A stretch of 32,840 nt of DNA from Elusimicrobiota bacterium (lineage in GTDB: Bacteria; Elusimicrobiota; Elusimicrobia; UBA1565; UBA9628): NCBI GenBank assembly GCA_030696455.1, contig JAUYSH010000040.1, positions 1 through 32,840 of the forward strand, given 5' to 3'. The notes under the pieces were generated by a model. It was not told the origin of the DNA and ran no database searches. It was given only the letters and a program-made list of their open reading frames with translations. Shown one piece after another: positions 143 to 20,010 of this stretch; position 1 is the stretch's first letter; every line of letters starts with the position of its first letter. The position numbers were made by a program, and so were the translations under genes.

Positions 143-1606
143 ATGAGCCTCCTCCGACCCGCTCTCGCCGCGCTGCTTCTTTTTTCCTCCATCCCTTTGC
201 CCGCTCAGATGCTCTCCGCGCCCAAGGCCGCCAAGGCCGCGAAGAAGGGGGAGCCGGCCCTTCCCCTCGCGGGCAGCCCCCTGGAACCTCTCGTCGCCGC
301 GGCCGCGCCGCCCGCGGTTCTGTCCGGCGCGACGGCCGCCGCGGCGGCGCCGGCCAACAGCGGTTCGAGCTCCATCCTGCCCGCCATCCCCAGCGCGCCC
401 AGCGAGGACCGCATCGAGCTCGACAAGATCTCGACGCAGAACATGATCAAGCAGCAGGAGTTCCAGCGCAAGGTCCGGGCGCTGACCGAGGAGCGCGACG
501 AGAGCCTGCTGCGCAACGCCGTGCAGGCGGAGAAGCTGCGCGCCGAATTCGCGCCGGTCGAGCACGAGCAGAAGGTTTTGCTGCTCAAGGGTCAGATCGA
601 GGAGGCGAAGTTCCTGCAGGCCGCGGCCGCCCTGCGCCGCGAGCGCGACAAGGCCCGGCTCGAGAACGAGGTCGCGCGCGAGAAGCTCAACGCCGAGCTG
701 ATCAAGGCGGACGCCGAGAAGCTGCGCCGCGACCTCGTCGTCCAGGAGCTCGACTTCCAGGCCCGCAAGCTGCGCCAGGAGTCGGACCTCGCCGACAACA
801 AGACGGTCGCCATCAAGGCCGACCTCGAGCTGCGCGAGAAGAAGGAGGTCTGGAAGAAGCAGGCCAACCGCGAGCCCGACTACGTCAAGGAGCCGTTCAA
901 GGACGGCGTGCTCACCCTCAGCGACCGCCGCATCGCGATCACGGGGCCCATCGTCTACGGCACGGCGGACTACGTGACCGAGCGCATCCATTACTTCAAC
1001 AACAAGTCCGAGGAATTCCCGATCTTCCTCGTGATCGACCGCAGCCCGGGCGGCTCGGTGATGGAGGGCTACCGTATCCTCAAGGCGATGCAGGCCAGCA
1101 AGGCCCCCGTGCACGTCGTGGTGAAGTCCTACGCGGCCAGCATGGCGGCGACCATCGCCACCTTGGCGCCGCGGTCCTACGCCTACCCGAACGCGGTCAT
1201 CCTTCATCATCAGATTTGGAGCGTGACCTTCGGCAACCCGACCCAACAGAAGCAGCAGCTCGACACGCTCAAGGAGTGGGACCGCCGCCTGCGCGAGCCG
1301 ATCGCGCGCAAGATGGGCACGAGCATGGAGAAGTTCACGGCCGAGATGTACAGGCAGAACGTCGACGGCGACTGGGAGGAGTTCGCGGACGCCGCGGTCC
1401 GGCTCAAGTGGATCGACCACGTCGTGCACGAACTGCGCGAGACCGGGATGCTCAAGGAGCCCGAGGCCAAGCTCGGCGACAAGCCCAAGCTCGCCTTCGG
1501 CCTGGCGGAGGAGGCGGACGCGAAGGGCGACCGCTACGTGCGCCTGCCTCGGCTGCAGCACTCCGACGCCTACTTCCTCTACAACCGGGACGGCTACTAC
1601 CGCTAG
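143..1606 (+). CDS. exported ClpP-fold serine protease with coiled coil
   Basis: The 487-residue product starts with a signal peptide (1-22, ending LPAQ), then an Ala/Pro-rich stretch to about residue 88 and a long charged coiled coil (about 92-245). The C-terminal domain has the ClpP/crotonase-like protease layout. SPGG at 301-304 matches the oxyanion strand, S333 in YAASMA is the likely nucleophile, H356 followed by Gln matches the ClpP catalytic His, and D410 is the likely third member. Spacings of 23 and 54 residues are close to those of ClpP. ClpP is normally a cytoplasmic 200-residue protein fed by AAA+ unfoldases; this one should act outside the cytoplasm, so an ATP-driven partner is unlikely. 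The start is set by AGGAGA at 129-134. Its stop overlaps that of the convergent gene. The protease call is well supported; substrate and partners are unknown. Confidence 0.8.
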   Translation: MSLLRPALAALLLFSSIPLPAQMLSAPKAAKAAKKGEPALPLAGSPLEPLVAAAAPPAVLSGATAAAAAPANSGSSSILPAIPSAPSEDRIELDKISTQNMIKQQEFQRKVRALTEERDESLLRNAVQAEKLRAEFAPVEHEQKVLLLKGQIEEAKFLQAAAALRRERDKARLENEVAREKLNAELIKADAEKLRRDLVVQELDFQARKLRQESDLADNKTVAIKADLELREKKEVWKKQANREPDYVKEPFKDGVLTLSDRRIAITGPIVYGTADYVTERIHYFNNKSEEFPIFLVIDRSPGGSVMEGYRILKAMQASKAPVHVVVKSYAASMAATIATLAPRSYAYPNAVILHHQIWSVTFGNPTQQKQQLDTLKEWDRRLREPIARKMGTSMEKFTAEMYRQNVDGDWEEFADAAVRLKWIDHVVHELRETGMLKEPEAKLGDKPKLAFGLAEEADAKGDRYVRLPRLQHSDAYFLYNRDGYYR

Positions 1607-2782: not shown

Positions 2783-3496
2783 CTATTGCGCGGCGCGGGC
2801 GTCGATGCCCTCGTGAAAGCGCCACGCGGCGACGAAGGCCCCGGCCGTGACGACATGCCAAAGGGCGTGGAACTGGAACCAATGGTTGTCCGGCGCGCAG
2901 CCGAGGTCCGTGTGGTCGAGATGCCAGAAGGCGTAGGCGGCGCCCAGCAGAATCAGCATGAGCCAGAAAGACGCGTAGGAGGGGGCGTCGCGTTTGACGA
3001 GCATGAACCTCAGCTCCACGGCGACGAGGGCCAGCACCTGAACGAGGACGAGGGTCTGGATGCCCCAGCCCGCGGCGCGGAAGACGAACAAGGCGGCCAT
3101 GCTCGCCGCGAACAGGGCGCCCCAGAGGCGAAGCGCCCCTTGCCGACCCAGCAGGCCGGCGCGCAGGGCTCCGCGCGCGAGCGCCCAGCCGAGGAGCAGG
3201 AACATCCCGCCGTAGTCGAGGACCTGGCCCGCGAAAGTGTAGGAGGCGTGGAAAACGAAGGAGGTCGCGCCGACGGCGACGGCGACCGGGCCGAGGCCGC
3301 CGGCCGCGAGCAGGTCCCGCTTGGCCGCGCGCTTCCAGATCCAGAATCCCACCGCGACGTAGGCGAGGTTCGACCAGGTGTTGGCCGGGGCCGCGATCCA
3401 CCCCGCGAGGTTGGCCTCGCAATGCTTGATGTCGGGCAAGGCCCATCCGGACCAAAGTGAGCCGGCGGGCGGCGGGGGCACGAGGCGCGGATCCAT
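2783..3496 (-). CDS. ceramidase-family (CREST) membrane hydrolase
   Basis: The 237-residue protein has about seven hydrophobic segments and the polar signature of the alkaline ceramidase/CREST superfamily. C26-E27 are followed by S42 in an N-T-W-S-N segment; S79 and H83 lie in SFVFH; D94 in the next segment; and H210 and H214 in HALWH near the C-terminus. In this family the conserved His and Asp bind zinc and the Ser contributes to amide hydrolysis. The expected reaction is cleavage of an N-acyl sphingoid or similar lipid in the membrane. The length suits the family. The -10 TACAGT (minus strand, 3508-3503) ends 6 nt before the start codon, implying a leaderless mRNA. The gene is divergent from the PrcB-like gene and shares the intergenic GC-rich dyad. 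The exact substrate cannot be read from sequence. Confidence 0.78.
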   Translation of the reverse strand: MDPRLVPPPPAGSLWSGWALPDIKHCEANLAGWIAAPANTWSNLAYVAVGFWIWKRAAKRDLLAAGGLGPVAVAVGATSFVFHASYTFAGQVLDYGGMFLLLGWALARGALRAGLLGRQGALRLWGALFAASMAALFVFRAAGWGIQTLVLVQVLALVAVELRFMLVKRDAPSYASFWLMLILLGAAYAFWHLDHTDLGCAPDNHWFQFHALWHVVTAGAFVAAWRFHEGIDARAAQ

Positions 3497-3502
3497 GCCG
3501 AA

Positions 3503-3552
3503 ACTGTACCGAAACGGGCCCCGGAGCGTCTAGGCCCGGGGGCCCGTTTCGG
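3503..3552 (-). promoter_or_regulatory. ceramidase promoter with inverted repeat and dyad
   Basis: The minus-strand -10 TACAGT is at 3508-3503. Immediately upstream is a perfect 14-bp inverted repeat (3509-3522 and 3539-3552, 16-nt gap). Its right arm overlaps a GGGCC-type dyad at 3533-3545, which sits 24 nt from the -10, the same geometry as in seven other promoters of the window. There is no -35 hexamer. This looks like an activator or repressor site. Confidence 0.5.
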
Positions 3553-3575
3553 CGTGGGCCGCTTGGCGGGCCGTT

Positions 3576-3621
3576 TTGGGCCTCCTTGGCCCAAGGGAAT
3601 AGAGAGAAGCCTTGTTAAGAT
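3576..3621 (+). promoter_or_regulatory. promoter of the PrcB-like gene with GC-rich dyad
   Basis: The -10 TAAGAT is at 3616-3621, 6 nt before the ATG. The dyad TTGGGCCTCCTTGGCCC is at 3576-3592, exactly 23 nt from the -10. There is no recognisable -35 element and no ribosome binding site. Confidence 0.55.
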
Positions 3622-3627
3622 AAAGGC

Positions 3628-4155
3628 ATGAAGAAAACCACTTTCGCCGCGATCGCCGCCCTCCTCCTCTCGGTCTCCGCTTCCGCCCAGGTCATCGGGG
3701 AGTGGAACAAGCTCGAAGGCCAGCGCAGCGGCATCGCCGAGCGCCGCATGGTCGCCGTCAGCGACAGCGCGGCCTGGGAGCAGGTCTGGAAGGAGCACTC
3801 GGCCGACGCTCCCATCCCCGCCGTGGATTTCTCCAAGGAAAGCGTCGTCGCGGTGTTCCTCGGCGAGACGCGGGCCGCCGGCGTGAAGATCGAGATCGTC
3901 GTCCAGAACGACATGATCGACGAGAATCGCCTCAACGTTTTCTACAAGGAGACGCGCTCCGCCTCCAAGGGCTTCTCCGCCCAGGTGATCAGCCGGCCCT
4001 TCGCGATGGTCAAGGTGCGCAAGACCGCGACCGTCTCCTTCGAGGCCAACGGCCGCGTCTCCATCCCGGAGAGCGTCAAGGCCCCGAAGAACCCGCGCGA
4101 CGACTCCAAGGTCCGCGCCCTGCTCGAGACGCTCCCGTCCTTCGACGGCCGCTGA
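3628..4155 (+). CDS. exported PrcB-like protein
   Basis: The 175-residue product has a clear signal peptide (1-20, ending ASA before Q21). The mature part resembles the PrcB C-terminal domain family: a W-x(3)-W pair near residues 50-54, a VDF-x(3)-S-V-V-A-V-F-L-G strand, alternating beta strands and a P-F-A-M-V-K-V motif near the end. In Treponema, PrcB is an accessory lipoprotein of a subtilisin-type protease complex. Here there is no lipobox, so the protein should be soluble outside the inner membrane. Several proteases with the same promoter element follow, including a subtilisin, which makes a role as protease partner or inhibitor attractive, though this is inference. The -10 box only 6 nt upstream points to a leaderless mRNA. 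Confidence 0.65.
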   Translation: MKKTTFAAIAALLLSVSASAQVIGEWNKLEGQRSGIAERRMVAVSDSAAWEQVWKEHSADAPIPAVDFSKESVVAVFLGETRAAGVKIEIVVQNDMIDENRLNVFYKETRSASKGFSAQVISRPFAMVKVRKTATVSFEANGRVSIPESVKAPKNPRDDSKVRALLETLPSFDGR

Positions 4156-4230
4156 GCGTCTAGGCCTGCGGGCCCCGTCGAGGGATAGGTCCAATAACCC
4201 CTCGACAATTCGAGGTTCCGGCCCTATACT
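4154..4230 (+). promoter_or_regulatory. promoter of the MFS/ATP-grasp gene with dyad
   Basis: The -10 TATACT at 4225-4230 ends 6 nt before the GTG start. The dyad TAGGTCCAATAACCCC spans 4186-4201, 23 nt from the -10. An octamer CCGTCGAG begins at 4175, exactly 62 nt before the start codon, as it does before the M28 and M48 genes. An 8-bp inverted repeat (4177-4184 and 4199-4206) surrounds the dyad. The 13-mer at 4154-4166 is identical to 3524-3536. Confidence 0.55.
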
Positions 4231-4236
4231 CCCACT

Positions 4237-7200
4237 GTGAAGCGACCCCTCGCCTTCGCCCTCGCCTTCCTCATTGTCGCCCTGTCCCCGGGCGCGCCCG
4301 CCTACCAGGCGTTCGCGCAGACGGTGGGCCGGACCGGCACGGCGACGGGCTCCGCGGGCGACGCGGCGACCTCGGTCAACTCCGGCGTCGGCAGCGGCGG
4401 GATGTCCGCGCCGCTGTCGCTGCCCGTCCAGACGCTCGGCCTCAACGGGGCCTTGGCGCCGGCCGCCGTGCCGGCCCTGAACGCCGCGGCGGTCCCCTCC
4501 CTGGCGCCCTCGGTCGCCGCCGCCGGCCCCGTCGCCGCGCTCTCTCAAGCGCAGGCCCTGCGGCCCGCCGCCGCCGCGGCCGCGATCCCGGCGGCGGCCA
4601 AGCCTCTTGTCCCCGGCGCGCTTCAGCCCGCCGCTAAGACGGCGAACGCTCCGGGAGGCCTGTCGGCCGCCTCGAAGCAGATCGAATCCCTGTCCCAGAC
4701 CGCGAAGCCGGTGCTCGACGGCGTCAAGCAAGGCGACGCGACCGGAGCCCTCAACAGCGTCTATGAGAACTCGTCCCGGCGCGGCGAGCTCGGCGCCGTG
4801 CGGACCCCGTCGGGCTCCGCGGCCCTTCGCCAGGGGCTGAAGCGCTCGGCGCCCTCGGCCGAGAAGAAAGCCGCCGAGGAGGTTCCGGCGGCCCTGGCGC
4901 CCGTCGCCAAGCCCTCCGTTTGGCAGCGCATCAAATCGACCTTCGACCTCTCCGAGTTCAACAAGAGCGAGAAGTCCTACATCGCCGGCCAGGCCGTCTT
5001 CCTGCTCGCGATCTCGGTGTACCTCGCGTCCTTGCCCCTGCTCGTGAGCGCTTTGACCGGCGACGCGGCGATGACCGGCGTGGCGCGCATGGTCCACTAC
5101 TGGGTGTTCGGCGGCGCGTCCCTGTTCGCGGGGGCGGTCGTCGGCAAGACCCCGATGAAGCGCATCCTCGTCGGCGCCGCCGGCGGCCGGGCCATGCTGT
5201 TCGGCTCGATCGGCGTCCTGGCCCTGATCGGGGGCCTGCCCTGGGCCGCCTTCCTCGTCCTCGTCGGCGTCAACGCGGCGATCGTCGCCCACAACCACCT
5301 CGTCGACATCGACACCGGCGGCGCGGCCAAGATCTTCAAGGGGGCCGACCAGAAGAGCACCGACCGCAAGATCGAGAAGGCCGGCTACGTCTACGACTTC
5401 ATCTACTACGGCATGATGCTGATCGTGCCCGCGATGATCGGCCTGCCGATGGACTGGATCGACGCGCGCTTCGGCCCGGGCATCGGCGCCGGCGCGGGCT
5501 TCGCGGTGTTCGCGGCCCTGATGGGCGTCGTATCCTTCATATACGCCAAGCGCGTGGTCACCATCGGAGACATCGCCTCGGCCCCGTGGGCGGGCTTCAA
5601 GAACTACGTCGGACGCATCCTCGGCGCGTTCAAGACCTTCGGACGCATCCTCATCGACGTGCCGCGCCGCAACTGGGCGACGGCGAAGATCATCCTCCAG
5701 AACAAGGCCATCCTCGCGCGCTCCGCGATGGCGACGACGGAGAACTTCGTCGAGGACGCCCTCTTCGCGGTCGTCCTGCCCACCTTCGCCATCGACATCC
5801 TCAAGGTGGGCGCGTTCGGCAACGGCCTGCTTCTCTCCGCGATCACCGCCGGCGGCCTCGTGGCCTCGATGTTCCTGATGAAGCGCATCCAGGGCCTGCA
5901 GGCCAAGCACGGCACCTACAAGGTCCTGGCCGGCCTGACCGCGGTGGCGGCACTCGCCTTCGTGCCCTCGATCGGGCTGTGGCTCGTGCCCTCGCTGGCG
6001 CTCGCCATCCCCGCGGTGTTCATGATGAAGCTGATGCTGCAGCCGCTGCGCTCGCGCATGCGCGCCTTGCTTCAGGTCGAGATCAAGAACGATCCCAAGG
6101 CCGCGCCGTTCGCCGACGACATCTACAGCCTGATGACCTTCGTCGAGGTGATCGCGGCCGGCGCGGGCGGGCTTGCCTTCGCGTGGCTGTTCCACAACTC
6201 CATGCCCGGCTCGGCGCTCGCGCTGGCGCTCGGCGCGCTGGCGCCGATGAAGATCGTCACGGTCACCTTGTTCGCGCTGGGCTTCGTGTACCTCGGGGGC
6301 CTGCGCTGGGTCAAGCAGCAGCTCAGCAAGCCGACGCATACGGTCCACAAGTCGCCCGAGGGCAACGAGGCGAAGATGCTCGCCCAGCTCGCGGTCAGCC
6401 TGAAGGAAAACGGCCTGCCGGAGCACAAGTCGGCGACGGTCGCCGGCGCGGCGAGCGAGGACCTGCCCACGGTCGTCGTGCTCGCGCCCGCGTCGCGTCA
6501 CAAGATCGCGCTCGCCCGCGAGGGCGGACGCCAGGCCGAGGGGAACTTCCATCTCGTGCTCGACGCCTCCTGGCTGATCCAGGAGACCTATCCCGACGGG
6601 CGCACTGGGCTGCGCGTGAAAAAGGGCGTGGTCTTCGACGAAAACGGCCAGGCGACGGTCGTGGAGTATGAGGTTCCGCGCCGCGTGCGCTACTTCGCGA
6701 ACTACTTCACGCTCGGCGCCAACGACCGCGACGACGGGAACGTGTTCGAGACGAACCTTGACGTGCCTCAGTCGAACTCGCTTCAGCTCGAGAAGGTGGT
6801 CAACGACAAGCTGGGCACGCGCCTGATCCTGGCCGCCGGCGGCGTCGCGGTGCCCGCGACCTTGGCCCTGCTCATGCCGCTGCACCACCTCGCGGACCGG
6901 CCGATGGGCGCCCAGGGCACGGTGCAGGTGGCGGCGATGCCCGCGCCCGGATCCCGCGCGGCCGAGGTCTCCCGGCTCGTCGACGACTACCTGGCGGCGT
7001 TCCAGGGCGCGGAGCTCGTCGTGAAGCCCTCCGGCCCCCAATTCCACTCCGGCCGCGGGGTCAAGTTCTTCAAGAAGTCCGAGCGCGACGCGATCATCGC
7101 GCACGCGTTGGCGCTGGCCGTCGACGCGCAGATGACCGAGGACGGGGCGGTGCTCCTCGACGAGCGCGTCGACTCCGCTCCGCTCGACCGCGGCGGCCGC

Positions 7201-8991
7201 AAGATGGAGACCACGGGCCGCATCCTCGTCGCGCGCGCCCCGTGGGGCGGGGCGGCGACGACGGGCATGTTCGCCCGCGTCGGGCCGTGGGGCAAGCCCA
7301 CGACCGCCGAGGCGGCCGACCCGCGCGACAACGCGACCGTCGAGCCCATGGAGAAGCTCTTCGCCGAATGGAGGAAGGCGGGGCTCATCGACGAGCGCGG
7401 CGCGCGCGAGCTCGAGGCGCTGATGCGCGAGACGGGCGAGAACGCGCTCAAGGCGATCGCCGAGTACGAGAAGTCCTTCGGGCGCAAGGAGGGGGAGCCC
7501 TACCAGGCGCAGAGCGACATGATCGGGCTCGATGTGATGATCGAGAAGCGCGACGGGAAGCTGACGCCCGTGATCATCGAGGTCAACGATCACGACTCGG
7601 GCGGCCAGTACAACCTCGATCAGATGCACCCCGAGCGCTCCGGCGAGCACTCCCGCGAGTGGGTCGCGACGATGCTGCAGCGCGCGCGCCGCGACGCCCT
7701 CAAGGGCAAGCGGCTCGTGATCGTCGGGGCCGGCTACGAGGGCAAGAAGCCGATCTTCGAGCGCGCCCGCGAGCTCGGGGTCGACATCATCCTCATCGAC
7801 AGCGCCAAGAGTTGGGCCAACGACCCGCGCTACATCTCCGAGCTGATCCCGACCGACAACACCAAGCCGGCCGAGGCCCTGACCATCGCCCGCAAGAAGC
7901 TGCAGCGCTCTGTCCGCAAGAACGGCAAGCTCGACGGCATCACCACCTTCTGGGAGGACGACGTGGTCCTCACGGCGGACCTGGCCAAGTCCCTGGGGCT
8001 GCCGTACCACAGCCCCGACGCCGCGCGCACCGCGCGCAGCAAGTTCGAGACGCAGGCCGTCCTGGCCTTGAAGGGCGTGCCCGCCGCGCGCCAGCAGACG
8101 ATCGACAACCTGTCCACGGCCGCCGACGAGAAGGAGCGCGAGGCCATGGTCGCCAAGTTCCGCGAGTCCGCGTCCGAGGTCGGCTTCCCCGCCGTGATCA
8201 AGCCCGTGTCCGGCGCCGCCGCCATCGGCACCGAGAAGGTCTCCTCGCTCGAAGAGGCCGTCGGGGCCTACCGGCGCATCAGCGCGATCATCAACCCGAA
8301 GACGGACCCCATCTTCGCCAACAACTCCGACCTGCTCCTGATGCAGTATCTCGACGGGCACGAGTACGACGTGGACCTGGTCATGGTCGCGGGCAGGCCC
8401 GTGTTCCAGTCCGTGGCGGACAACAAGCCCACCCGCGAGCCGTCCTTCCTCGCCACCGGCTCGCGCCTGCCCAGCACGATGACCTCCCGGCAGCAGAAGG
8501 AGTCCGCGGATCAGGCCATCGCGTCCGCCCAGGCCCTGGGCCTGACGGACGGGGTCGTCCACATGGAGGGGAAGTACACCTCCGAGGGCGCCCGGCTCAT
8601 CGAGGGCAACGCGCGCATGGGCGGCACCTACGTCCACGACTGGGTCAAGACCGTCTGGGGCGTGGACCTCGCCGAAGAGGGTTTCATGGCGGCGGCGCGC
8701 ATCGGCGGGCGGCCTTTCAGGCCCGCGGCCCCGCTCGTCCACCTCGACGGCGACTTCGTCAACTCCGACAAGGCCGGCGTGATCAAGGTCCTCGAGCTGC
8801 CCGAGGAGGCCCGCCGCCTGCCCGGCTTCATCCGCTTCCGCATGGTCAAGAAGGCCGGCGACCGCATCACGACCGACGAGGGCGGCGGCTACACGCGCGT
8901 GGCGATGCTCGAGGTCGGCGGCAAGAACGCCGATGAGGCGAAGCGAAACCTCGAGGCGATCAAAGCCAAGATCCGCTTCGTCGTTGAATAG
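4237..8991 (+). CDS. MFS-like membrane protein fused to tandem ATP-grasp ligase
   Basis: The 1584-residue protein starts at GTG. Residues 1-28 form a signal-like segment (ending FAQ), followed by an Ala/Pro-rich linker to about 225. Residues 247-690 contain about 12 hydrophobic segments in an MFS-like arrangement. The rest resembles two ATP-grasp halves, as in carnosine synthase. Half one (about 745-1150) has K930 in a VVKPSG motif, an HSGRG loop, and E1115 and N1117 in IIEVND. Half two starts with a Rossmann-like strand (VIVGAG, about 1160) and has K1322 in AVIKPVSG, E1376 in the hinge, and E1456 and N1458 in IEGNARMGG. Both halves retain ATP and metal residues. ATP-grasp enzymes of this kind ligate amino acids or peptides. 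The fusion suggests a small peptide made and exported by one polypeptide. Whether the N-terminus is truly exported is unclear, since the ligase needs cytoplasmic ATP. Confidence 0.78.
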   Translation: MKRPLAFALAFLIVALSPGAPAYQAFAQTVGRTGTATGSAGDAATSVNSGVGSGGMSAPLSLPVQTLGLNGALAPAAVPALNAAAVPSLAPSVAAAGPVAALSQAQALRPAAAAAAIPAAAKPLVPGALQPAAKTANAPGGLSAASKQIESLSQTAKPVLDGVKQGDATGALNSVYENSSRRGELGAVRTPSGSAALRQGLKRSAPSAEKKAAEEVPAALAPVAKPSVWQRIKSTFDLSEFNKSEKSYIAGQAVFLLAISVYLASLPLLVSALTGDAAMTGVARMVHYWVFGGASLFAGAVVGKTPMKRILVGAAGGRAMLFGSIGVLALIGGLPWAAFLVLVGVNAAIVAHNHLVDIDTGGAAKIFKGADQKSTDRKIEKAGYVYDFIYYGMMLIVPAMIGLPMDWIDARFGPGIGAGAGFAVFAALMGVVSFIYAKRVVTIGDIASAPWAGFKNYVGRILGAFKTFGRILIDVPRRNWATAKIILQNKAILARSAMATTENFVEDALFAVVLPTFAIDILKVGAFGNGLLLSAITAGGLVASMFLMKRIQGLQAKHGTYKVLAGLTAVAALAFVPSIGLWLVPSLALAIPAVFMMKLMLQPLRSRMRALLQVEIKNDPKAAPFADDIYSLMTFVEVIAAGAGGLAFAWLFHNSMPGSALALALGALAPMKIVTVTLFALGFVYLGGLRWVKQQLSKPTHTVHKSPEGNEAKMLAQLAVSLKENGLPEHKSATVAGAASEDLPTVVVLAPASRHKIALAREGGRQAEGNFHLVLDASWLIQETYPDGRTGLRVKKGVVFDENGQATVVEYEVPRRVRYFANYFTLGANDRDDGNVFETNLDVPQSNSLQLEKVVNDKLGTRLILAAGGVAVPATLALLMPLHHLADRPMGAQGTVQVAAMPAPGSRAAEVSRLVDDYLAAFQGAELVVKPSGPQFHSGRGVKFFKKSERDAIIAHALALAVDAQMTEDGAVLLDERVDSAPLDRGGRKMETTGRILVARAPWGGAATTGMFARVGPWGKPTTAEAADPRDNATVEPMEKLFAEWRKAGLIDERGARELEALMRETGENALKAIAEYEKSFGRKEGEPYQAQSDMIGLDVMIEKRDGKLTPVIIEVNDHDSGGQYNLDQMHPERSGEHSREWVATMLQRARRDALKGKRLVIVGAGYEGKKPIFERARELGVDIILIDSAKSWANDPRYISELIPTDNTKPAEALTIARKKLQRSVRKNGKLDGITTFWEDDVVLTADLAKSLGLPYHSPDAARTARSKFETQAVLALKGVPAARQQTIDNLSTAADEKEREAMVAKFRESASEVGFPAVIKPVSGAAAIGTEKVSSLEEAVGAYRRISAIINPKTDPIFANNSDLLLMQYLDGHEYDVDLVMVAGRPVFQSVADNKPTREPSFLATGSRLPSTMTSRQQKESADQAIASAQALGLTDGVVHMEGKYTSEGARLIEGNARMGGTYVHDWVKTVWGVDLAEEGFMAAARIGGRPFRPAAPLVHLDGDFVNSDKAGVIKVLELPEEARRLPGFIRFRMVKKAGDRITTDEGGGYTRVAMLEVGGKNADEAKRNLEAIKAKIRFVVE

Positions 8992-9089: not shown

Positions 9090-10358
9090 ATGAACCGAGC
9101 CCTCGCCTCGTTGTTGTCGCTTCTGATCGTTACTCCCGCTTCCTCTCAGGTCATTTCCGTACGCTTACCCGCAGCGGGCGGCGCTCCAACGATCGTTCCC
9201 GCCACGCCCGCCCTCATCGGCGCGCCGTCGATCCCGACCTTGTCGCCTTTATCCTTGACCCCGGCCCTTCTCTCCCCGTCGATCGCCCTGACACCTATTA
9301 ATGCGCTCGTTCCCGCCGCGCTCAATCCGTTGCCGTCGCCGGTCTCAGCCGCGGCCCCCGCCGCGCTCCGCGCGGCAAAAACATTGTCCGGCACTCTCTC
9401 CGCGGCTGCGTCCGAAGGACGCAGCCAAGCTCCGGCCCTCAACGCCGCATTCGATGGCCTCAAAGCCGCGTCCACGCCCGACGCCGTTTCCGTTCCCGCC
9501 GCTCCCGCCCCCGATTCGTTCGTCCTCGAGGCCCGCCGCCGCTTCGCCGCCCTTCGCCGTTCCGAGACGACCGGCCAGGCGCGCCCCGAGGGCGCGATCC
9601 CCAGCGACGAGGACCTGTACGGCCGCATGGACCGACTCCCCTCCACGAACCCCGAGCGCGCGCGATTCATGATCGACCTCTTCAAGCTCGGCGGTGCCAC
9701 CGACGCCGACATCGTCCTCCAGGACGCCGGCCGCGGCCGCAACAACATCATCGTGACGAAGAAGGGCCGCACCGACCGCGTCATCGTCATCGGCGGCCAC
9801 TACGACAAGGTCAGCGTCGGCCTGGGCAAGATCGACAACGGCACGGGGGCCACGATGGTCGCCAACCTGTACCAGGCGATGAACGGCGTCGAGACCGACG
9901 CGACGCTCGTCTTCATCGCCTTCGCCCGCGAGGAGGAAGGCCTGTACGGCTCGCAGACCTACGTGCGCTCCTTGGACAAGACGAAGCGCGCGAAGATCGA
10001 CGCGATGATCAACCTCGACACGCTCGCCGTCGACGGCACATTCTCCTGGAAGAACAACTCCACGCGCGCGCTCCTCGACCGCATGGCGCAGGTCTCCCGC
10101 GAGAGCGGCCACGCGATGAAGGAGGCCTACCTCAACGGCGGCGACGCCGACTCCTCGACCTTCCGCGACGCGGGCATCCCCGCGGTGACGATGTACGGCG
10201 CGTCGCAGGACGTGATCTTCGACGTCATCCATAACGAGAACGACACGATGGCCGCGTTCAGCCTCGCGCACTACAAGAACGCGTACCTGCTCGTTCTCGA
10301 GGCGATCAAGTCGCTCGATCGCGCCCCTCTTGGCCCCGTCGGGCGCAGAGACATTTAG
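9090..10358 (+). CDS. exported M28-family zinc aminopeptidase
   Basis: The 422-residue product has a signal peptide (1-20, ending ASSQ), a low-complexity Ala/Pro/Ser linker to about residue 143, and a complete M28 catalytic domain. Expected zinc ligands and catalytic residues are visible in order: H237 in GGHYD, D249 in KIDNGTGA (bridging Asp), E281-E282 in AREEEGLYGS (general base and zinc ligand), D310 in NLDT, and H381 in IHNEND. M28 enzymes remove N-terminal amino acids or hydrolyse dipeptides, typically outside the cytoplasm. The -10 box is 6 nt from the ATG and there is no Shine-Dalgarno sequence, so the mRNA is probably leaderless. A 10-bp GAA-loop hairpin (9404-9426) lies in the linker coding region. 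The gene might supply or process peptides linked to the ligase upstream, but only the shared promoter motif suggests this. Confidence 0.88.
   Translation: MNRALASLLSLLIVTPASSQVISVRLPAAGGAPTIVPATPALIGAPSIPTLSPLSLTPALLSPSIALTPINALVPAALNPLPSPVSAAAPAALRAAKTLSGTLSAAASEGRSQAPALNAAFDGLKAASTPDAVSVPAAPAPDSFVLEARRRFAALRRSETTGQARPEGAIPSDEDLYGRMDRLPSTNPERARFMIDLFKLGGATDADIVLQDAGRGRNNIIVTKKGRTDRVIVIGGHYDKVSVGLGKIDNGTGATMVANLYQAMNGVETDATLVFIAFAREEEGLYGSQTYVRSLDKTKRAKIDAMINLDTLAVDGTFSWKNNSTRALLDRMAQVSRESGHAMKEAYLNGGDADSSTFRDAGIPAVTMYGASQDVIFDVIHNENDTMAAFSLAHYKNAYLLVLEAIKSLDRAPLGPVGRRDI
9404..9426. repeat. 10-bp perfect GAA-loop hairpin inside the M28 gene
   Basis: The perfect stems are 9404-9413 and 9417-9426 with loop GAA. 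The hairpin lies in the low-complexity linker (about residues 105-113), not in the catalytic domain. See the matching elements at 13035 and 18259. Confidence 0.7.
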
Positions 10359-10389: not shown

Positions 10390-10459
10390 GTTGGGACCAA
10401 TGCCCGCGCGATTTCGGGACCTTCGACCCGCCGGTGAAAGACGCGGGCTGTGATACCAT
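10390..10459 (+). promoter_or_regulatory. promoter of the HAD/nuclease operon with doubled dyad
   Basis: Two dyad-like boxes are present: 10390-10404 (gTTGGGACCAATGCC) and 10413-10429 (TTCGGGACCTTCGACCC). Their GGGACC cores are 23 bp apart. The M50-S8 promoter has the same pair at the same 23-bp spacing. A plausible -10 TACCAT at 10454-10459 lies 24 nt past the second box. A 12-bp palindrome (CCTGGGCCCAGG) at 10374-10385 lies just upstream. Transcription from here would give a leader of about 50 nt. Confidence 0.5.
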
Positions 10460-10520
10460 GGCGTCCAGGACGCAAGAGACTCGAACGATGCACGGGGATA
10501 TCGTGAAGAGAGAAATGACG

Positions 10521-12773
10521 ATGAAAGTTCTGTCCATCTTTTGCTGTTCCGTTATCTTGAGCGGGTCTTCCGCGCCGGCTTTCGCGCAGGTGGTGCGCGG
10601 CGGCATCGGCGGCGCGGGCGTTCATGCGCCCGCGGCCGGAGCCCTTACCGGCTCGGCTTCCGCGATCAACCCCGCCCTCAACGGCGGGGTTTCTTCTATA
10701 CAGGGAAGCCTGGCGCCGACCATGGTCGCGCCCTCCGCGGCACTGACGCCCGCCCTGAGCGCCCCGATCGCCCTCGCCCCCGCGAAGGCCGTCGTCGCGG
10801 CGTCGCCCCTGGCGGCCGTGAAGGCCGAGCCCGTCAACGCCCTCGCTTCGGCCCGCACCTTGGCCGCCGCGATCGGCGACGAGAACCTGCCCAAGGGCCC
10901 GGACCAGGCCAAGGAGGCCGCCGACCAGGCTTTCGACGGTGCCTTGAACGGCGGCACCGTCGAAACTCCTTCAGATGCGCCCTTCGCCCACAACGGCGCG
11001 CCGCTCGCCCAGCTCTACCCGCGCGTGGTGTTCGTGCAGGACGTCTTCTCCGGCCCCGCGTCGGAGAAGACCGTCGAGTACGTCAACAAGCTCGTCGACG
11101 CCGGCGTGCACGTGGTGTTCCTGACCTGGCGCCCGCACCGCGGCGCGGACTCGGCCGACTCGGTGCTCATGACGCGCGTCAAGCAGTCGCGCAACAACCC
11201 GGTCATCGTCGTCTCCTACAACGGCGGCAAGGTCTCCCTGCACGGCCGCGCGGCCAACCCCAAGCCGCTCATCGAGAGCGTCGGCGCGTTCCCCGTCGAG
11301 GCCCTCGCCAAGATCAAGAAGCTCGCCAACGTCGTCGAGGCCGTCCCGACCGACGCCGAGGCCTTCTCCGTCACCGTCAAGCTCGTCGAGGGAGTCAAGT
11401 CGCCGTCCCTCAACGCCCAGATCAACGCCCTCAACCGCAAGTTCAAGGCCGCCGGCCTCGACTACAAGGCGGAGGCGCACCCGAACGTCCCCGGCGCGGC
11501 GATCATCCATTCGATGCCCCTGCGTTTTTCCTTGGCGCGGGTCATGCAGGCTCTCGAGACGCAGTTCGCCGGCGAGAACCTGTCCAAGTCGCCCGAGAAG
11601 TTCCTGATCCTGTCGGACTCCGTGAAGTCGCCCCGCTTCTCGACCGCCTTCCCTAAGAACTCCGAGATCCAGGTGGTCCGCGGCGGCGCGGCGATGGAGA
11701 ACGTGCTCGGCGCCGTCCTCGGCGACCGCGCGCTCGGCAGCGTCTCCCTGAAGCTCGGCAAGCTGCGCCAGTACGTCGAGTACTGGGAGCCCTCGCACAG
11801 CCGCGCCCGGAACTACGAGCCCGACGCGGTGGGCGGCAGCGGCGGCGGCGGCTCGATCCGGCGCGCGGGCGGCGATCGCGAGACGAACAAGATGTTCGCG
11901 ATGTACGTCGGCACGATCATGTTCCGCATGATGGCCCAGCTCTACGACGACATCTTCCGCGGCCAGCATCAGCTCGCCAAGCTCACCGTCCTCCAGGCGC
12001 AGCTGCGCTCGATGTGGTACGCGCCCCTCAAGCACGGCGTCTACGTGAACAAGGGCCTGGCCAAGATCATGAGCACCCCGGCCTGGAAGGCGCAGAGCAA
12101 GGGCTACCTCGAGTACGCGAACTCGTACCTTACGAATTTCTATTTCCGAGAATTCGGCGACTACACCCGCGCCGCCCGCAACGTGCAGGAGAACTACGTC
12201 GGCCTCTCGACCGACCGCAAGAGCCTGATCACCCTCGAGTTCGTCTCGGCGGCGACGGGCAAGCTGTACAAGATCCACACCCGCATCCCGCGCGTCATGC
12301 GCCTCGAGATGGCGCAGGGCCTGACGCTCACCGCCTACGCCTACCGCACCGGCAAGGAGACGCCGGACGACGGCGAGGAGTTCCTGGCCCGCGTGCTCGC
12401 CATGGCGATGCTCAAGGGCCACGCCCGCAAGGGGCCCGACGGCAAGTGGCACCACGGCTCGCCCGAGGGCAAGGTCATCGAGAGCCTCAACGTCCAGCTC
12501 GAGTACCGCACCAGCGCGCGCCTGCACATCTTCAAGGCCGAGGACTTCCTGCGCCTCGAGGAGGGCCAGACCGTCAACGGCCCGATCGTCCAGGAGATCA
12601 TCTCCGCCATCGAGCGCGAGGAGGCCGACGCCGAGTACCAGGCCTACTACGCCGAGCAGGAGCAGGAAGCCACGAAGGACGACCTGAAAAAGAATAAGAA
12701 ACCCGCGGCGAAGAAGACGGCCGTGGCGAAGGCGAAGCCGGCGGCGAAGAAGCCCGCCGTGAAGGGGAAGTAA
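10521..12773 (+). CDS. exported HAD-like protein with Lys/Ala-rich tail
   Basis: I choose the ATG at 10521 because it gives a proper signal peptide (1-23, ending AFAQ) and lies 8 nt after GAAGAGAG; upstream starts would bury the signal. The product is 750 residues. After an Ala-rich linker (to about 165) comes a HAD-like Rossmann segment. VVFVQD places D174 at motif I, but the usual second Asp is replaced, and FLTWRP places T202 at motif II. The HAD fold may therefore be catalytically inactive. A Gly/Ser linker at about 438-445 leads to a roughly 270-residue helical domain that I do not recognise. The last 30 residues are repeats of Lys, Ala and Pro, as in histone H1-like tails, suggesting binding to DNA or another polyanion. 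The gene ends 1 nt before the next start, so the two are translationally coupled. Function unknown. Confidence 0.75.
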   Translation: MKVLSIFCCSVILSGSSAPAFAQVVRGGIGGAGVHAPAAGALTGSASAINPALNGGVSSIQGSLAPTMVAPSAALTPALSAPIALAPAKAVVAASPLAAVKAEPVNALASARTLAAAIGDENLPKGPDQAKEAADQAFDGALNGGTVETPSDAPFAHNGAPLAQLYPRVVFVQDVFSGPASEKTVEYVNKLVDAGVHVVFLTWRPHRGADSADSVLMTRVKQSRNNPVIVVSYNGGKVSLHGRAANPKPLIESVGAFPVEALAKIKKLANVVEAVPTDAEAFSVTVKLVEGVKSPSLNAQINALNRKFKAAGLDYKAEAHPNVPGAAIIHSMPLRFSLARVMQALETQFAGENLSKSPEKFLILSDSVKSPRFSTAFPKNSEIQVVRGGAAMENVLGAVLGDRALGSVSLKLGKLRQYVEYWEPSHSRARNYEPDAVGGSGGGGSIRRAGGDRETNKMFAMYVGTIMFRMMAQLYDDIFRGQHQLAKLTVLQAQLRSMWYAPLKHGVYVNKGLAKIMSTPAWKAQSKGYLEYANSYLTNFYFREFGDYTRAARNVQENYVGLSTDRKSLITLEFVSAATGKLYKIHTRIPRVMRLEMAQGLTLTAYAYRTGKETPDDGEEFLARVLAMAMLKGHARKGPDGKWHHGSPEGKVIESLNVQLEYRTSARLHIFKAEDFLRLEEGQTVNGPIVQEIISAIEREEADAEYQAYYAEQEQEATKDDLKKNKKPAAKKTAVAKAKPAAKKPAVKGK
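10931..10965. repeat. 13-bp perfect hairpin inside the HAD-like gene
   Basis: The stems are 10931-10943 and 10953-10965 with a 9-nt loop, in the low-complexity linker at about residues 137-149. A perfect 13-bp stem is unlikely to be maintained by codon choice alone in a neutral linker. Confidence 0.6.
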
Positions 12774-12774
12774 C

Positions 12775-15348
12775 ATGAAGCTCGCGGCCCGTTTGCTCCG
12801 GGTCGTCCTGGCGGCGGCCCTGCTGGCTCCGTCATCGGCGTTCGCGCAGGTGCGCGCCTCCGTCCCGGGCGCCTCGGCGGGGGCTCCGATTGTGGTCCCG
12901 TCGTTCGGCGCGGGTCTCTCCGCTCCGTCCGTGACCGCTCCGCCCTTGAGCGCGCCGTCCTTGTCCTTGCCGCCGGTGCTCTCCGCCCCGGCGCTTGTCC
13001 CGTCCGCCGTCTCGCCCGTGCCGTCCGCCCTGCTCGATTCGCCGAAGGCGAATCGGCCGGTCGCGGCCGCCGCCGCAAAGGCGGCGATGCCCGCCGGCGT
13101 CGTGCCCGCGGCCCAGAAGCCCGTGGACCCCCAGTCCCCGGCGAAGCTGGACGCGCTGACCGCCCTGCGCGATATGCCCGCGACGCTCGAGTCCGCCCCC
13201 GCCGCCGCGGGGCGCTTCGACGGCGCGAAGGTCCGCCCCGCGCTCGAGGAGCCCGTCGAGCCGGAGACCGTCACGAGCGAGATCTCCGACCAGAACGTCC
13301 AGGACGACCTCGCCCTGTGGTTCACGCGCAAGCAGAAGGCCGACATCAAGAAGGACCAGGTCTACACGCTCGTGCGGCCGGTCCTCGGCAACGGCTCGCG
13401 CCGCTACTGGGAGAAGTTCGAGGAGAAGGCGAGCCTCGTCATCAAGGTCGGCGGCCAGGGCATGTTCATGTCCCGCGTGACCTACGCCCGCACGGTGCCG
13501 ATCAACCGCATGACGCTCAAGGATTTCGAGGGCGTCTACACCAAGTCGATGCTCCGCGGCAAGACCATCTACAAGCTCCGCGCCAAGCTCATCGCCGAGC
13601 TCAACGAGCGCAACGACCGCACGATGCGCGGCCAGTCCGGCGTCGTGACCCAGCTCTCCGAGGTCCGCGTCGTGCGCGTGCTGCCCTTCGGCCAGGCGCG
13701 CCTGCTGCCCGAGAACAAGGACGAGGACATTTACGCGCCTGTGGCGCGTAAATCCTATACCCTGCCCGCGGCGATGCAGGGCCTCAACCACATGTCCCCC
13801 AAGGTCGTCTTCCTCGACATGCGCCTCTTCCCGGACGGCGTCCCGTACCCGCTCCTCGAGGACATGACCAAGCTGATGAAGGCCGGCATGTACTTCGCGC
13901 TCCTCTCCGACAAGGCCAACGACGCCCCCGGCTCCGTCGAGGAGCAGCTCACGCGCGGCCTCACGATGAAGCAGAAGGACTCCATCTCCCGCTACAAGAT
14001 GGTCGTCCTGTCCGACGACGGCAACGCGCTGCAGTCCTACGACGGAGCCTTCGCGCGCTACCTGCCGTCCCAGCGCTTCGCCAACCAGGAGGTTGAGCTG
14101 ATGCGCTTCGCGGCCAAGCAGCTCGGCCTCGCCGGCGTGATCGCGTCGCACGGCACGGAGTTCATCGCTTCCATCAAGAAGGGGGGGGACGCCGCCGCGG
14201 CGCGGACCGCCCTGCTCGCTCAGATGAAGACCTTGGGCCTGCCGGTCGGGTCCTGGCAGTCGGTCGTCGCCGAGCGCGACGGCAAGACCTCCGTCGTCGT
14301 CCGCCCTCACCATCTGGCCAGCGCCATCCCGCATCTGCTCGAGTCTCTGCGCGAGCAGGAAGGCCTGTACGTCAACCCGAGCGACATCATGACGATCTCC
14401 CGGGACGAGGCCCTCCTCGCGGCCACCAAGGGCTCCTTCCAGCCGTCCAAGCTCCTGGAGGAGCAGGGCGCGGACCTGGCCGACGCGTCCTTGGCCGCGG
14501 TCCTCGGGCCGTACCGCGAGAATCGCCCCGGCGACCTCGCGGCCTCGGCCTCCAAGATCACGAGCTTCATCTACAACCCCGACCGCGTCGGCGGCGGCTT
14601 CAACGGCGGCAGCATCTACATGATGATGGGCCACGTGATGCACGCGGCGTTCAACTGGGCGGTGTGGAAGTACCGCAACGAGGGAGTGTTCCCCTCGGCC
14701 GAAGACACCGTCGCGGCCGCCGAGAGGATCTGGCTGCATGAGGAGTCCGAGCGCACGGGCAAGAACATCGACCGCCCGGGTGAGAACCTGGCCGGCTTCC
14801 ACGAGGTCATGGTGGGGCGCATGCGCACGATGCACGCGGTGACCGCGGATATCCTGAAGGTCTACCCGATCGCCATCGGCACCGAGCTCTCGAACATGCT
14901 CGTGTTCGACAACTACAAGAAGGGCGTGCCCGACAACCGCGACATCCTGCGCCTGATCTTCGACTTCGTCGTGGCGCGCGAGATGCCCGACGGCACGCTC
15001 GAGGTCGCGGTCGTCGACTTCAAGACCGGCCAGACACCGACCTTGCAGAACCTCGAGAAGGACACCCAGGTCCAGCTCTACGACCTGGCGATCCGCAAGA
15101 TGTGGCCGAAGATCTCGGTCCCGTACGGCGCGCTGGGAGAGCGCCGCCCGGTGTCGGACTACAAGATCCGCTTCATCTACCCGTCGGCGGGCTACCAGCC
15201 CCTGCTCAACGAGTGGAGCCGCATCAAGTTCGAGCGCTTCCTGCGCAACGTGATGAACCGCATCCGCAAGCACAACACCCCGCCGGCCCCGAAGCCCGCG
15301 GCGAAGACGAAGCGCAAGCCCAAGGCGAAGGCCGCGACGAAGAAGTAA
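12775..15348 (+). CDS. exported HAD-like / PD-(D/E)XK nuclease protein
   Basis: The 857-residue product has a signal peptide (1-25, ending AFAQ), a Pro/Ala linker to about 160, an unrecognised alpha/beta domain (about 165-325) and a HAD-like segment (D348 in VVFLDMR, S378 in FALLSD). The C-terminal domain (about 590-835) matches RecB/Cas4-type PD-(D/E)XK nucleases. It has S591-x-S593 with Y600-N-P602, G619 and H623 in MGHVMH, D730, then D748-F-K750-T-G (the D-x-K core) and Q765-x(3)-Y769. The order and spacing are those of this superfamily, so nuclease activity is likely. The tail is Lys/Pro/Ala-rich, as in the upstream gene. A signal peptide on a RecB-like nuclease is unusual and points to extracytoplasmic DNA, or to a signal that is not used. 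The gene starts 1 nt after the previous stop and is followed by a clear terminator. Confidence 0.75.
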   Translation: MKLAARLLRVVLAAALLAPSSAFAQVRASVPGASAGAPIVVPSFGAGLSAPSVTAPPLSAPSLSLPPVLSAPALVPSAVSPVPSALLDSPKANRPVAAAAAKAAMPAGVVPAAQKPVDPQSPAKLDALTALRDMPATLESAPAAAGRFDGAKVRPALEEPVEPETVTSEISDQNVQDDLALWFTRKQKADIKKDQVYTLVRPVLGNGSRRYWEKFEEKASLVIKVGGQGMFMSRVTYARTVPINRMTLKDFEGVYTKSMLRGKTIYKLRAKLIAELNERNDRTMRGQSGVVTQLSEVRVVRVLPFGQARLLPENKDEDIYAPVARKSYTLPAAMQGLNHMSPKVVFLDMRLFPDGVPYPLLEDMTKLMKAGMYFALLSDKANDAPGSVEEQLTRGLTMKQKDSISRYKMVVLSDDGNALQSYDGAFARYLPSQRFANQEVELMRFAAKQLGLAGVIASHGTEFIASIKKGGDAAAARTALLAQMKTLGLPVGSWQSVVAERDGKTSVVVRPHHLASAIPHLLESLREQEGLYVNPSDIMTISRDEALLAATKGSFQPSKLLEEQGADLADASLAAVLGPYRENRPGDLAASASKITSFIYNPDRVGGGFNGGSIYMMMGHVMHAAFNWAVWKYRNEGVFPSAEDTVAAAERIWLHEESERTGKNIDRPGENLAGFHEVMVGRMRTMHAVTADILKVYPIAIGTELSNMLVFDNYKKGVPDNRDILRLIFDFVVAREMPDGTLEVAVVDFKTGQTPTLQNLEKDTQVQLYDLAIRKMWPKISVPYGALGERRPVSDYKIRFIYPSAGYQPLLNEWSRIKFERFLRNVMNRIRKHNTPPAPKPAAKTKRKPKAKAATKK
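13035..13055. repeat. 9-bp perfect GAA-loop hairpin inside the nuclease gene
   Basis: The stems are 13035-13043 and 13047-13055 with loop GAA, encoding DSPKANR in the linker. It is homologous in sequence and reading frame to the hairpin at 18259-18277. One stem pair is T-A here and G-C there. Confidence 0.7.
13729..13753. repeat. 11-bp perfect hairpin inside the nuclease gene
   Basis: The stems are 13729-13739 and 13743-13753 with loop TGT. The stretch is locally AT-richer than its surroundings and lies in the linker before the HAD-like domain (about residues 319-327). Confidence 0.6.
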
Positions 15349-17601: not shown

Positions 17602-20010
17602 ATGAAGAACACGCGCCGCGTCCTCGCCGTCTTCCTCGCTTTCCTGACCCTCGCGTTCGCCCCTGGTCTTGTCTCCTATGAGGCCGCCGCGCAGGTCATC
17701 AACGGAGCGGGTTCCGCTCGCGCGGGTGGAGTCCCGGTCGTCCCGACGTACGGCGCGAACGGCGCCGGCATCGCTCCTCTCTCGCCCGCGGCGTCTCTCG
17801 CGCCGGGCCTGGTCGGCGGCCTGTCCGCCCCCGCCTTCAATGCTCCCGCCCCGACGCTCTCTCCCGTTTTCGCTCCCGCCGCCCTGACGCCCGGCGCGGC
17901 CCGCGCCGTCGCCGCGGCCATCCCGTCCTTGCCCGCCTCCGCCGTCGCCGCCCAGGCGTTGGGCCCCTCTCTTACGGCGAATGGAAGGGGCACTTCCTCG
18001 CCTTATGGCTCGGTCGCCGCTCAATCGGAAGCCGCCGCGGCTCCGGCCGCCGACGCGAAGGGTCAGCTCGCGCTCGCGGGCGAGCGCCTCTCCGCCGCCG
18101 CCGACGGCGACAAGACCGGCCTCCTCGATTCGTTCTTCACCGGCGCGCGCGCCATCTACGGCCGCCTGACCGGCGGCAATACTGCCTCCGGCTCGATGGT
18201 GGCGCAGCCTTCCGCATCCGCGGTCGTCAACGAGGTTCCCGCGGCCAAGTCCGTCGTCGAGTCGCCGAAGGCGACTCAGCCGACGCCGGTCGCGCTCGTC
18301 GGCACCGGCCTGCAGCCCGGCGACAAGTTCCTCACCGCCCCGGCCGCCGAGGAGAAGCCGCAGGTTCCCGCGCCCGCCCCCGAGGCCGTCGATCCCGCCG
18401 TCGGCGCCAAGGCCATCAAGTGGATGTACATCCAAGACGCGATCAGCATGTCGGTGTTCATCATGACCTCGATCGCCTACCCGATGATCGTGATCCCCGC
18501 CGTCGGCACCGTGACCTTCGGCGTGCTGATGGCCCTCGGGCCCCTGGCCGCGATCGCGCTCGGACCGCTCTCCGGCATGATCGCGACCCGCTTCGCCCCG
18601 CGCGAGGGCCTGGCCATCCTGTCCGGCCTGCGCGCCTTGCTGACCGTCGCCCTGCCCATCATGGCCTTGACCGGCATGATCAGTTTCTGGCCGCTGCTGC
18701 TCGCCTCGATCGCCAACGGCTGGCAGTTCTCGCTGCTGATGACGAGCCGCAGCGCCTACACGCGCCGCTTCGCGATCACCGACCCCAAGCAGACCCGCAG
18801 CTGGCTGCACATCGGCAACCTGACCACGATCGGCTTCTCGATCTACTTCCTGCTCCAGGTCATGCTCGGCTCGATCGGGCAGATCGGCGGGCTCATCGAC
18901 GCGATGAACCCGATGACCCCTTTCTGGATTTCGGCCGCCGTCAACGTCGGCCTCGTCTTCCTCAACTACTGGAAGATCCCCAAGATCGCCAACATCGTGT
19001 CCAACGCCGCCGGCGCCGTGAAGGCCGCGGCCGAGCCGTTCACGAAGAAGGCCGCCGCTTTTGGGAAAAAGTTCTGGAAAGAAATCGCGCTGTTCTCGGG
19101 CACCATCGCCGTGTACGCCTGGGGTCTTCCCTTCGTCCTGCCGGTGATCGGCACGGGCATCGGCTCGCCGCTGTGGATGGCGGCCGCCCTGCTGTTCTGG
19201 ATCTCCCGCACCGAGACCTTCAAGAAGGTGATGTCGACGCCGAAGATCCGCAACGCTCTGCTCCTGTCCGCCCTGGCGGCCGGCCTGATCTATCCCTTCC
19301 AGAACCTCGCGATGCCGCTGATCGCCGCCTCGCTGGGCGCCAAGGCCCTGATCTTCGGGCAGTTGCTCGGCGCGTTCTTCTTCGGCCAGCTGCTGTCCAA
19401 CGCGAGCATGGCCCGCCTGCCCGAGGTCAAGATCCCGTTCACGAGCAAAACGATCGCCGCCGAGCGCCTCCTGCAGGCCGGCGTGCTGACCCTGGCCGCG
19501 ATCTGGGCCGGGGTGCGCCTGTTCCCGGGCAGCCTGCTCGCCGCCGCCGCCGCGGTCGCGATCGGCGCGGCGATCATCGCCGTGACCTCGCGCCTGACCC
19601 ACCGCGGCTGGATCAAGTTCTACGGCATCGGCCTCATGGCCGCCGTCGGCGTCGCCCTGTCATGGGGATTCTTTCCGGGAATTTTCGCTTCCGTGATGCT
19701 GCTCGGCCTGTTCGTCGGCCCGTTCGTCTCGGCGATCACCTCCTACATCAGCGGCAACTCCGACCCCAAGATGGTCTCGCAGACCTTCGGCGTGAGCAGC
19801 TCGCTGTTCAACGCGCTGACCTCTTTCGGCTACGGGCTGATGGCGGCGAGCACGAAGGCGTACGGCGACCCGGCGTTCCCGAGCGCCCTGACGCCGATCA
19901 TCGCGGTCTACGTCGCCGCGGCGATCCTGTTCTTCTTCGCACCTAGATGGCTGCCCGGCCTGCCCGAGAAGAGCCTGCGCTCTCCCGAGCCTAAAAAGCC
20001 CGCCGCGTAA
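17602..20010 (+). CDS. MFS-like transporter with long N-terminal extension
   Basis: The 802-residue product has a signal-like N-terminus (1-31, ending SYEAAAQ, like the ATP-grasp and M50-S8 proteins) and an Ala/Pro-rich segment to about 270. A membrane domain with roughly 12 hydrophobic segments follows (about 275-790). Charged loops such as RFAPREG after the second segment and the paired six-helix arrangement suit the major facilitator fold. No signature identifies a substrate. It resembles the membrane domains of the ATP-grasp and M48 fusions and may be a stand-alone relative. The -10 lies 8 nt before the ATG, so the mRNA is probably leaderless. The linker carries a GAA-loop hairpin at 18259-18277. 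Confidence 0.72.
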   Translation: MKNTRRVLAVFLAFLTLAFAPGLVSYEAAAQVINGAGSARAGGVPVVPTYGANGAGIAPLSPAASLAPGLVGGLSAPAFNAPAPTLSPVFAPAALTPGAARAVAAAIPSLPASAVAAQALGPSLTANGRGTSSPYGSVAAQSEAAAAPAADAKGQLALAGERLSAAADGDKTGLLDSFFTGARAIYGRLTGGNTASGSMVAQPSASAVVNEVPAAKSVVESPKATQPTPVALVGTGLQPGDKFLTAPAAEEKPQVPAPAPEAVDPAVGAKAIKWMYIQDAISMSVFIMTSIAYPMIVIPAVGTVTFGVLMALGPLAAIALGPLSGMIATRFAPREGLAILSGLRALLTVALPIMALTGMISFWPLLLASIANGWQFSLLMTSRSAYTRRFAITDPKQTRSWLHIGNLTTIGFSIYFLLQVMLGSIGQIGGLIDAMNPMTPFWISAAVNVGLVFLNYWKIPKIANIVSNAAGAVKAAAEPFTKKAAAFGKKFWKEIALFSGTIAVYAWGLPFVLPVIGTGIGSPLWMAAALLFWISRTETFKKVMSTPKIRNALLLSALAAGLIYPFQNLAMPLIAASLGAKALIFGQLLGAFFFGQLLSNASMARLPEVKIPFTSKTIAAERLLQAGVLTLAAIWAGVRLFPGSLLAAAAAVAIGAAIIAVTSRLTHRGWIKFYGIGLMAAVGVALSWGFFPGIFASVMLLGLFVGPFVSAITSYISGNSDPKMVSQTFGVSSSLFNALTSFGYGLMAASTKAYGDPAFPSALTPIIAVYVAAAILFFFAPRWLPGLPEKSLRSPEPKKPAA
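18259..18277. repeat. 8-bp GAA-loop hairpin inside the MFS-like gene
   Basis: The stems are 18259-18266 and 18270-18277 with loop GAA, encoding ESPKAT in the linker. Compared with 13035-13055 the stem differs by a compensatory T-A to G-C change (18261 with 18275). Confidence 0.68.

Follow-up and report, generated by a model that had tools for sequence, protein, structure and literature searches.

A conserved fusion of an MFS transporter with two ligase modules in Elusimicrobiota, a candidate synthetase-exporter of small amides

A single polypeptide that joins an MFS transporter domain to two ligase modules is encoded on a 32,840-nucleotide stretch of DNA (hereafter the window), which is a whole contig of a 4.0-Mb Elusimicrobiota MAG. 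The open reading frame (4237-8991, plus strand) starts with GTG, runs over 1584 amino acids without internal stops and encodes, from the N to the C terminus, a Sec-like leader, an Ala/Pro-rich linker, a 12-helix MFS domain and two ligase modules. We give about even chances to the reading that this inner-membrane protein makes an amide in two cytosolic steps and exports it through its own fused MFS domain. The features of the gene and of the genes downstream are as follows.

4202..4230, plus strand: promoter-like element, read from the sequence and kept in G003, JACRDP and G001
4237..4320, plus strand: signal-peptide-like leader, residues 1-28 (VKRPLAFALAFLIVALSPGAPAYQAFAQ), from sequence and identity across relatives
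4321..4941, plus strand: Ala/Pro-rich linker of roughly 200 aa, about residues 29-235, from sequence and identity across relatives
4963..6327, plus strand: 12-TM MFS domain, residues 243-697, from TIGR00900, AlphaFold2, Foldseek and loop charges
6427..7686, plus strand: N-terminal ligase module (N-module), a likely divergent ATP-grasp, about residues 731-1150, from the AlphaFold2 model, motif residues and a weak Pfam match
7693..8988, plus strand: C-terminal L-amino-acid-ligase module (C-module), residues 1153-1584, from Pfam, profile, structure and motif residues
9090..10358, plus strand: M28 peptidase with the same leader type, the next gene downstream, from neighbour comparison
10434..12773, plus strand: 779-aa leader protein without a Pfam match; G004, G005 and JACRDP (divergent, 33%) have a homologue close to the fusion
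12775..15348, plus strand: 857-aa leader protein with a PDDEXK_1 nuclease-like domain; G004 and JACRDP encode homologues close to the fusion

The promoter-like element consists of a -35 box TCGACA (4202-4207), a 17-bp spacer and a -10 box TATACT (4225-4230), the end of which lies 6 nt from the GTG, and TCGACA-N17-TATACT is near-identical in the own genome and the three relatives named above. This position supports the GTG start, suggests that the mRNA would be leaderless and, through the start codon, makes the N-terminal leader a genuine part of the fusion protein. The leader is 96, 79 and 89% identical in G003, G001 and JACRDP, respectively, against 73, 65 and 42% for the linker. That the fusion is a chance open frame was rejected: the long antisense open reading frame (3010-8742) was judged an artefact of the 69% GC content, and the plus frame holds all domain matches and shows purifying selection.

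The 12-segment transporter claimed in the preliminary description was borne out. The domain has a weak match to TIGR00900 (E 1.3e-4), the AlphaFold2 model of residues 225-722 is a 12-TM bundle (pLDDT 74), and the best 50 of 242 Foldseek matches in the PDB (E<=1e-3) were all MFS-type carriers with TM-scores of ~0.6, so that both the 12 helices and the fold of the MFS superfamily are present. Loop charges predict that the N-terminus, the even-numbered MFS loops and the ligase are on the cytosolic side. Among the fusion homologues, dN/dS is 0.16-0.29 for the MFS domain and the unswapped ligase modules.

The C-module is, by the available tests of sequence and model, an L-amino-acid ligase akin to BL00235, BacD and RizA, and its nearest relatives are bacterial L-amino-acid ligases; the label 'carnosine-synthase-like' of the preliminary description is therefore not established. 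Pfam matches above the gathering cut-offs cover ATPgrasp_N (1174-1256), ATP-grasp_4 (1316-1465) and LAL_C2 (1507-1584), and hmmsearch profile matches relate the module to BL00235 (3vot, E 1e-40), BacD (1e-24) and RizA (5e-19). The AlphaFold2 model of the ligase part (pLDDT 86.6, pTM 0.86) superimposes its C-module on 3vot over 385 residues (Z 35.7, rmsd 3.7). K1322, E1444, E1456, N1458 and R1460 are invariant or nearly so in 11 homologues, and the Lys, Glu, Glu-x-Asn and Arg residues line up with those of the solved ligases in profile alignments. The module thus combines the sequence relation, the whole-enzyme fold and the conserved ATP/Mg and substrate residues of this enzyme class.

The N-module is likely a divergent ATP-grasp domain. 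In the same model its strand and helix order is that of the C-module, and K930, D1099, E1115 and N1117 are invariant across 12 N-module homologues, so that a conserved Lys (K930) and a Glu-x-Asn motif (E1115, N1117) are present. Pfam ATPgrasp_ST weakly matches 8 of the 12 homologues (best E 8.6e-5), the window protein itself falling below the cut-off. Neither an hhalign comparison with the C-module nor a PDB profile search gave a significant match to the N-module, for which no closely related sequence has a solved structure; the structure-search matches listed nearly all fall on the C-module, so that the lack of N-module matches among them is uninformative. The earlier claim of two intact ATP-grasp halves is supported for the C-module by Pfam, profile and fold; for the N-module, predicted element order, motifs and sub-threshold Pfam matches make an ATP-grasp likely. 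In the predicted structure, which had been proposed as a check, both modules share one element order, and sequence profiles by themselves do not prove the N-module fold.

The same fusion was found whole, as a single open reading frame, in five other genomes, namely G003 (81% identity), JACRDP (68%), G011 (49%), G013 (48%) and G010 (33%; 2091 aa, with an extra C-terminal domain), as the preliminary description had proposed to search for. The intact fusion is hence present in six genomes from at least two families of the order. In G014 and G001, fragments of the fusion stop at contig edges, and the G014 match contains one in-frame TAG. A single-sequence search with the N-module in 60 genomes across the phylum hit the own genome only and none of the 59 other Elusimicrobiota outside the order, so the fusion family looks restricted to this order. 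That two genes were joined by a local assembly error, a concern because the contig comes from a MAG, was rejected and has a practically negligible probability: the same join recurs in five other assemblies, with contigs of 44-396 kb among them, which excludes chance or misassembly.

Sequence comparison suggests that lineages have swapped ligase modules while keeping the transporter. In pairwise comparisons of G000, G001 and G003, the MFS domain, which is the most conserved module in the clade, is 92-94% and the C-module 88-90% identical; the N-module is 87% identical between G000 and G001 and 64-65% between G003 and both. A two-breakpoint fit places the foreign stretch of G003 at residues 719-1143, the module's own borders. 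The dS of the G003 N-module is 0.57, about twice that of the flanks (0.25 and 0.29), which favours replacement over fast protein change. In JACRDP, identities are 83-87% for the MFS domain, 80% for the N-module and 55% for the C-module, which is nearest to that of G004 (66%), with a break near residue 1168. The dS of this C-module (0.63) does not stand out against that of the N-module (0.57), and its divergence may reflect exchange or, instead, fast evolution. AU tests, in which p-values are a guide because the clades were named after the identities had been seen, rejected the clade G000+G001+G003 in the N-module tree (p 0.002) and gave p 0.015 for the clade of the JACRDP C-module. No source for the exchanged modules was identified. 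Exchange of ligases on a fixed MFS domain would vary the product and leave its export unchanged.

A fusion in the reverse order is present in the same genome, where a 1205-aa frame (L023:4461-8075, C112) encodes a leader, a single L-amino-acid ligase and an MFS domain. It has a relative in G003 (L035), and related open frames of ~1,070-1,090 aa in G001 and G014, known by match and length alone, match it as well. The MFS parts of the forward and reverse fusions are only distantly alike, so that ligase and MFS were apparently joined on two or more occasions. Elsewhere in the genome, L022:4887-7349 encodes a third type of ligase, an L-amino-acid ligase with a D-Ala-D-Ala-ligase-like domain, in which we saw neither MFS nor leader.

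Downstream, the M28 gene adjoins the fusion in JACRDP and G004 and was not found beside it in G003. As a set, the M28, 779-aa and PDDEXK genes lie downstream of the fusion in the window, in G004 and, partly divergent, in JACRDP, but not in G003. No recognised precursor genes were found beside the fusion.

The domain make-up, its conservation, the conserved active-site residues and the exchange pattern are seen in the data; from these we infer what the protein does, on which substrates, in which order of two steps, how it lies in the membrane and in which direction it transports. The MFS domain would span the inner membrane, its two ends facing the cytosol. On that side, the C-module would turn a carboxylate into an acyl phosphate at the expense of ATP and join it to an amine, and the N-module would perform a second ATP-dependent ligation on the same product or supply one of its building blocks. 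The small amide-linked product would pass to the fused MFS domain and be exported, probably by proton antiport. Synthesis coupled to export, as first suggested from the gene alone, gains from the conservation of the fusion and from the second, reverse-order joining of ligase and MFS; it stays an inference because three orthologues have no MFS. If true, a natural synthetase-exporter whose ligases can be exchanged would be a compact route to a range of secreted small amides. It could also yield new metabolites from bacteria that have not been cultured and serve as a model for engineering producer strains.

The domains might instead share a chain without functional coupling, in a fusion-prone lineage that tolerates chance multidomain proteins. 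Such giant proteins do occur here: the window encodes an M48 peptidase-MFS fusion (20857-25731, 1624 aa) and an M50-S8 (subtilase) fusion (26078-29245, 1055 aa), and L039:4321-13866 encodes 3182 aa with BatA-like, TPR, three VWA and DUF58 domains. We nevertheless consider this very improbable, since the fusion persists under purifying selection across deep divergence (48% identity) and a further joining of ligase and MFS, in opposite order, exists. The MFS domain of the M48 fusion is akin to that of the ligase fusion (25%, E 1.6e-8). A weightier, though still unlikely, alternative is that the MFS domain anchors the ligase or imports a substrate such as an amino acid or amine, the ligase acting on a nearby envelope precursor, possibly with a FemAB-like aminoacyltransferase-type domain. 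In G009 the leader passes directly into the ligase without MFS, and in G005 and G012 non-hydrophobic sequence precedes the ligase in frames that both start at contig edges. These three orthologues indicate that the enzyme can do without the transporter, and the MFS domain of G010 belongs to a different subfamily; the transporter is common in the family, yet neither obligatory nor fixed. FemAB family proteins build peptidoglycan bridges, and a FemAB-like protein is a possible partner of the ligase. The extra domain of G010, fused to the ligase, is weakly FemAB-like, and G009 has a homologue as a separate, divergent leader protein adjoining the ligase (loci L027:7971-9101 and L030:4354-6138 for these two genomes); G003 has one ~4.5 kb from the fusion. 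Against this reading, the Pfam match of the FemAB-like domain is weak (E 0.011), the own genome carries the gene on a different contig from the fusion, and the MFS domain is better conserved in the clade than an anchor needs.

The leader raises a further alternative, that it is a working signal peptide and places the ligase outside the cytosol, in the periplasm or an internal membrane-bounded compartment, with ATP there and the MFS domain inverted. The exported N-terminal extension of the preliminary description is real insofar as the leader is real and conserved; its export is at odds with the topology of the MFS domain and with a ligase that needs ATP, for loop charges put the MFS ends and the ligase in the cytosol, whereas the MFS domain would begin on the outside after a working signal peptide. 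Leaders with Ala/Pro-rich linkers cluster in the window (143-1606, 4237-8991, 9090-10358, 10434-12773, 12775-15348, 17602-20010, 20857-25731 and 26078-29245), where they precede peptidases, a nuclease-like domain, MFS fusions and proteins of no recognised kind. In a heuristic scan, 350 kb of regions selected in part for leaders contained 22 leader proteins, and 703 kb picked irrespective of leaders gave 4 candidates, of which at least one is likely false. Passengers include S8, M28, M48, M50 and Clp-like peptidases, as well as Lon, LonB/C-like, MoxR and other AAA ATPases. Besides a canonical leaderless Lon, the own genome encodes a second Lon with a leader (loci L042:2861-5629 and L137 for the pair), a leader or linker is also found on Lon-type frames in G006 (L134) and G003 (L133), and the gene beside L039:4321-13866 encodes a MoxR-type AAA protein with a leader as well. 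Either such leaders do not export, or ATP-dependent enzymes may act outside the cytosol. An extracytosolic ligase would account for a leader that looks like the classical AxA-Q type, begins at a promoter-supported start codon and is better conserved than the linker, for the leader coming first in all three architectures (with MFS, without MFS and reversed), which would put the ligase on the same outer side each time, and for similar leaders on Lon, LonB/C-like, MoxR-like and AAA proteins of the same genome, Lon having a leaderless canonical copy besides. We regard it as quite improbable, as the positive MFS loops indicate the opposite orientation and we know of no precedent for a group of enzymes like this being provided with ATP beyond the cytosol. 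Wider still, and a long shot, is the idea that the lineage exports ATP-dependent enzymes, the ligase included, to an energised extracytoplasmic or internal compartment by means of leaders and Ala/Pro-rich linkers, recombining modules to vary the product made there. Leaders on ATP-dependent enzymes raise a testable question about cell organisation in this order.

Returning to the synthetase-exporter, dipeptide antibiotic pathways are known in which an L-amino-acid ligase works with an MFS exporter. A search mainly of the open literature, with subscription journals little covered, found no papers on an ATP-grasp/MFS fusion or on such a ligase and exporter in one polypeptide, and nothing relevant on Elusimicrobia biosynthesis or signal peptides appeared by title and abstract. 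A carrier and an enzyme do share one open reading frame in some bacteria that fuse the MFS protein LplT to Aas (PMC11416262). LplT-Aas differs in that it handles lysophospholipids and relies on acyltransferase chemistry, which has no relation to ATP-grasp; Aas-type acyltransferase/acyl-ACP synthetase domains are not found in our fusion, where Pfam identifies ATP-grasp and L-amino-acid-ligase domains only. Carnosine synthase has a long N-terminal half ahead of its ATP-grasp domain. This enzyme (CARNS1/ATPGD1), compared here by description only, is likewise an ATP-grasp amide ligase (PMC6920838), but it is eukaryotic and lacks an MFS domain. BL00235 (3VOT), BacD/YwfE (3VMM, 3WNZ) and RizA (4WD3) share the fold, motifs and LAL_C2 domain of the C-module; they are free-standing single ligases, whereas here the ligase follows a leader, an MFS domain and a second ATP-grasp-like module. 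In bacilysin biosynthesis, the L-amino-acid ligase BacD is paired with the MFS exporter BacE, much as ligase and MFS are paired in the fusion. BacD and BacE are encoded by separate genes with one ligase module, in contrast to the single polypeptide with two described here. By analogy, the fusion would work like the BacD/BacE pair made into one protein, a shared product being implied by the fusion itself.
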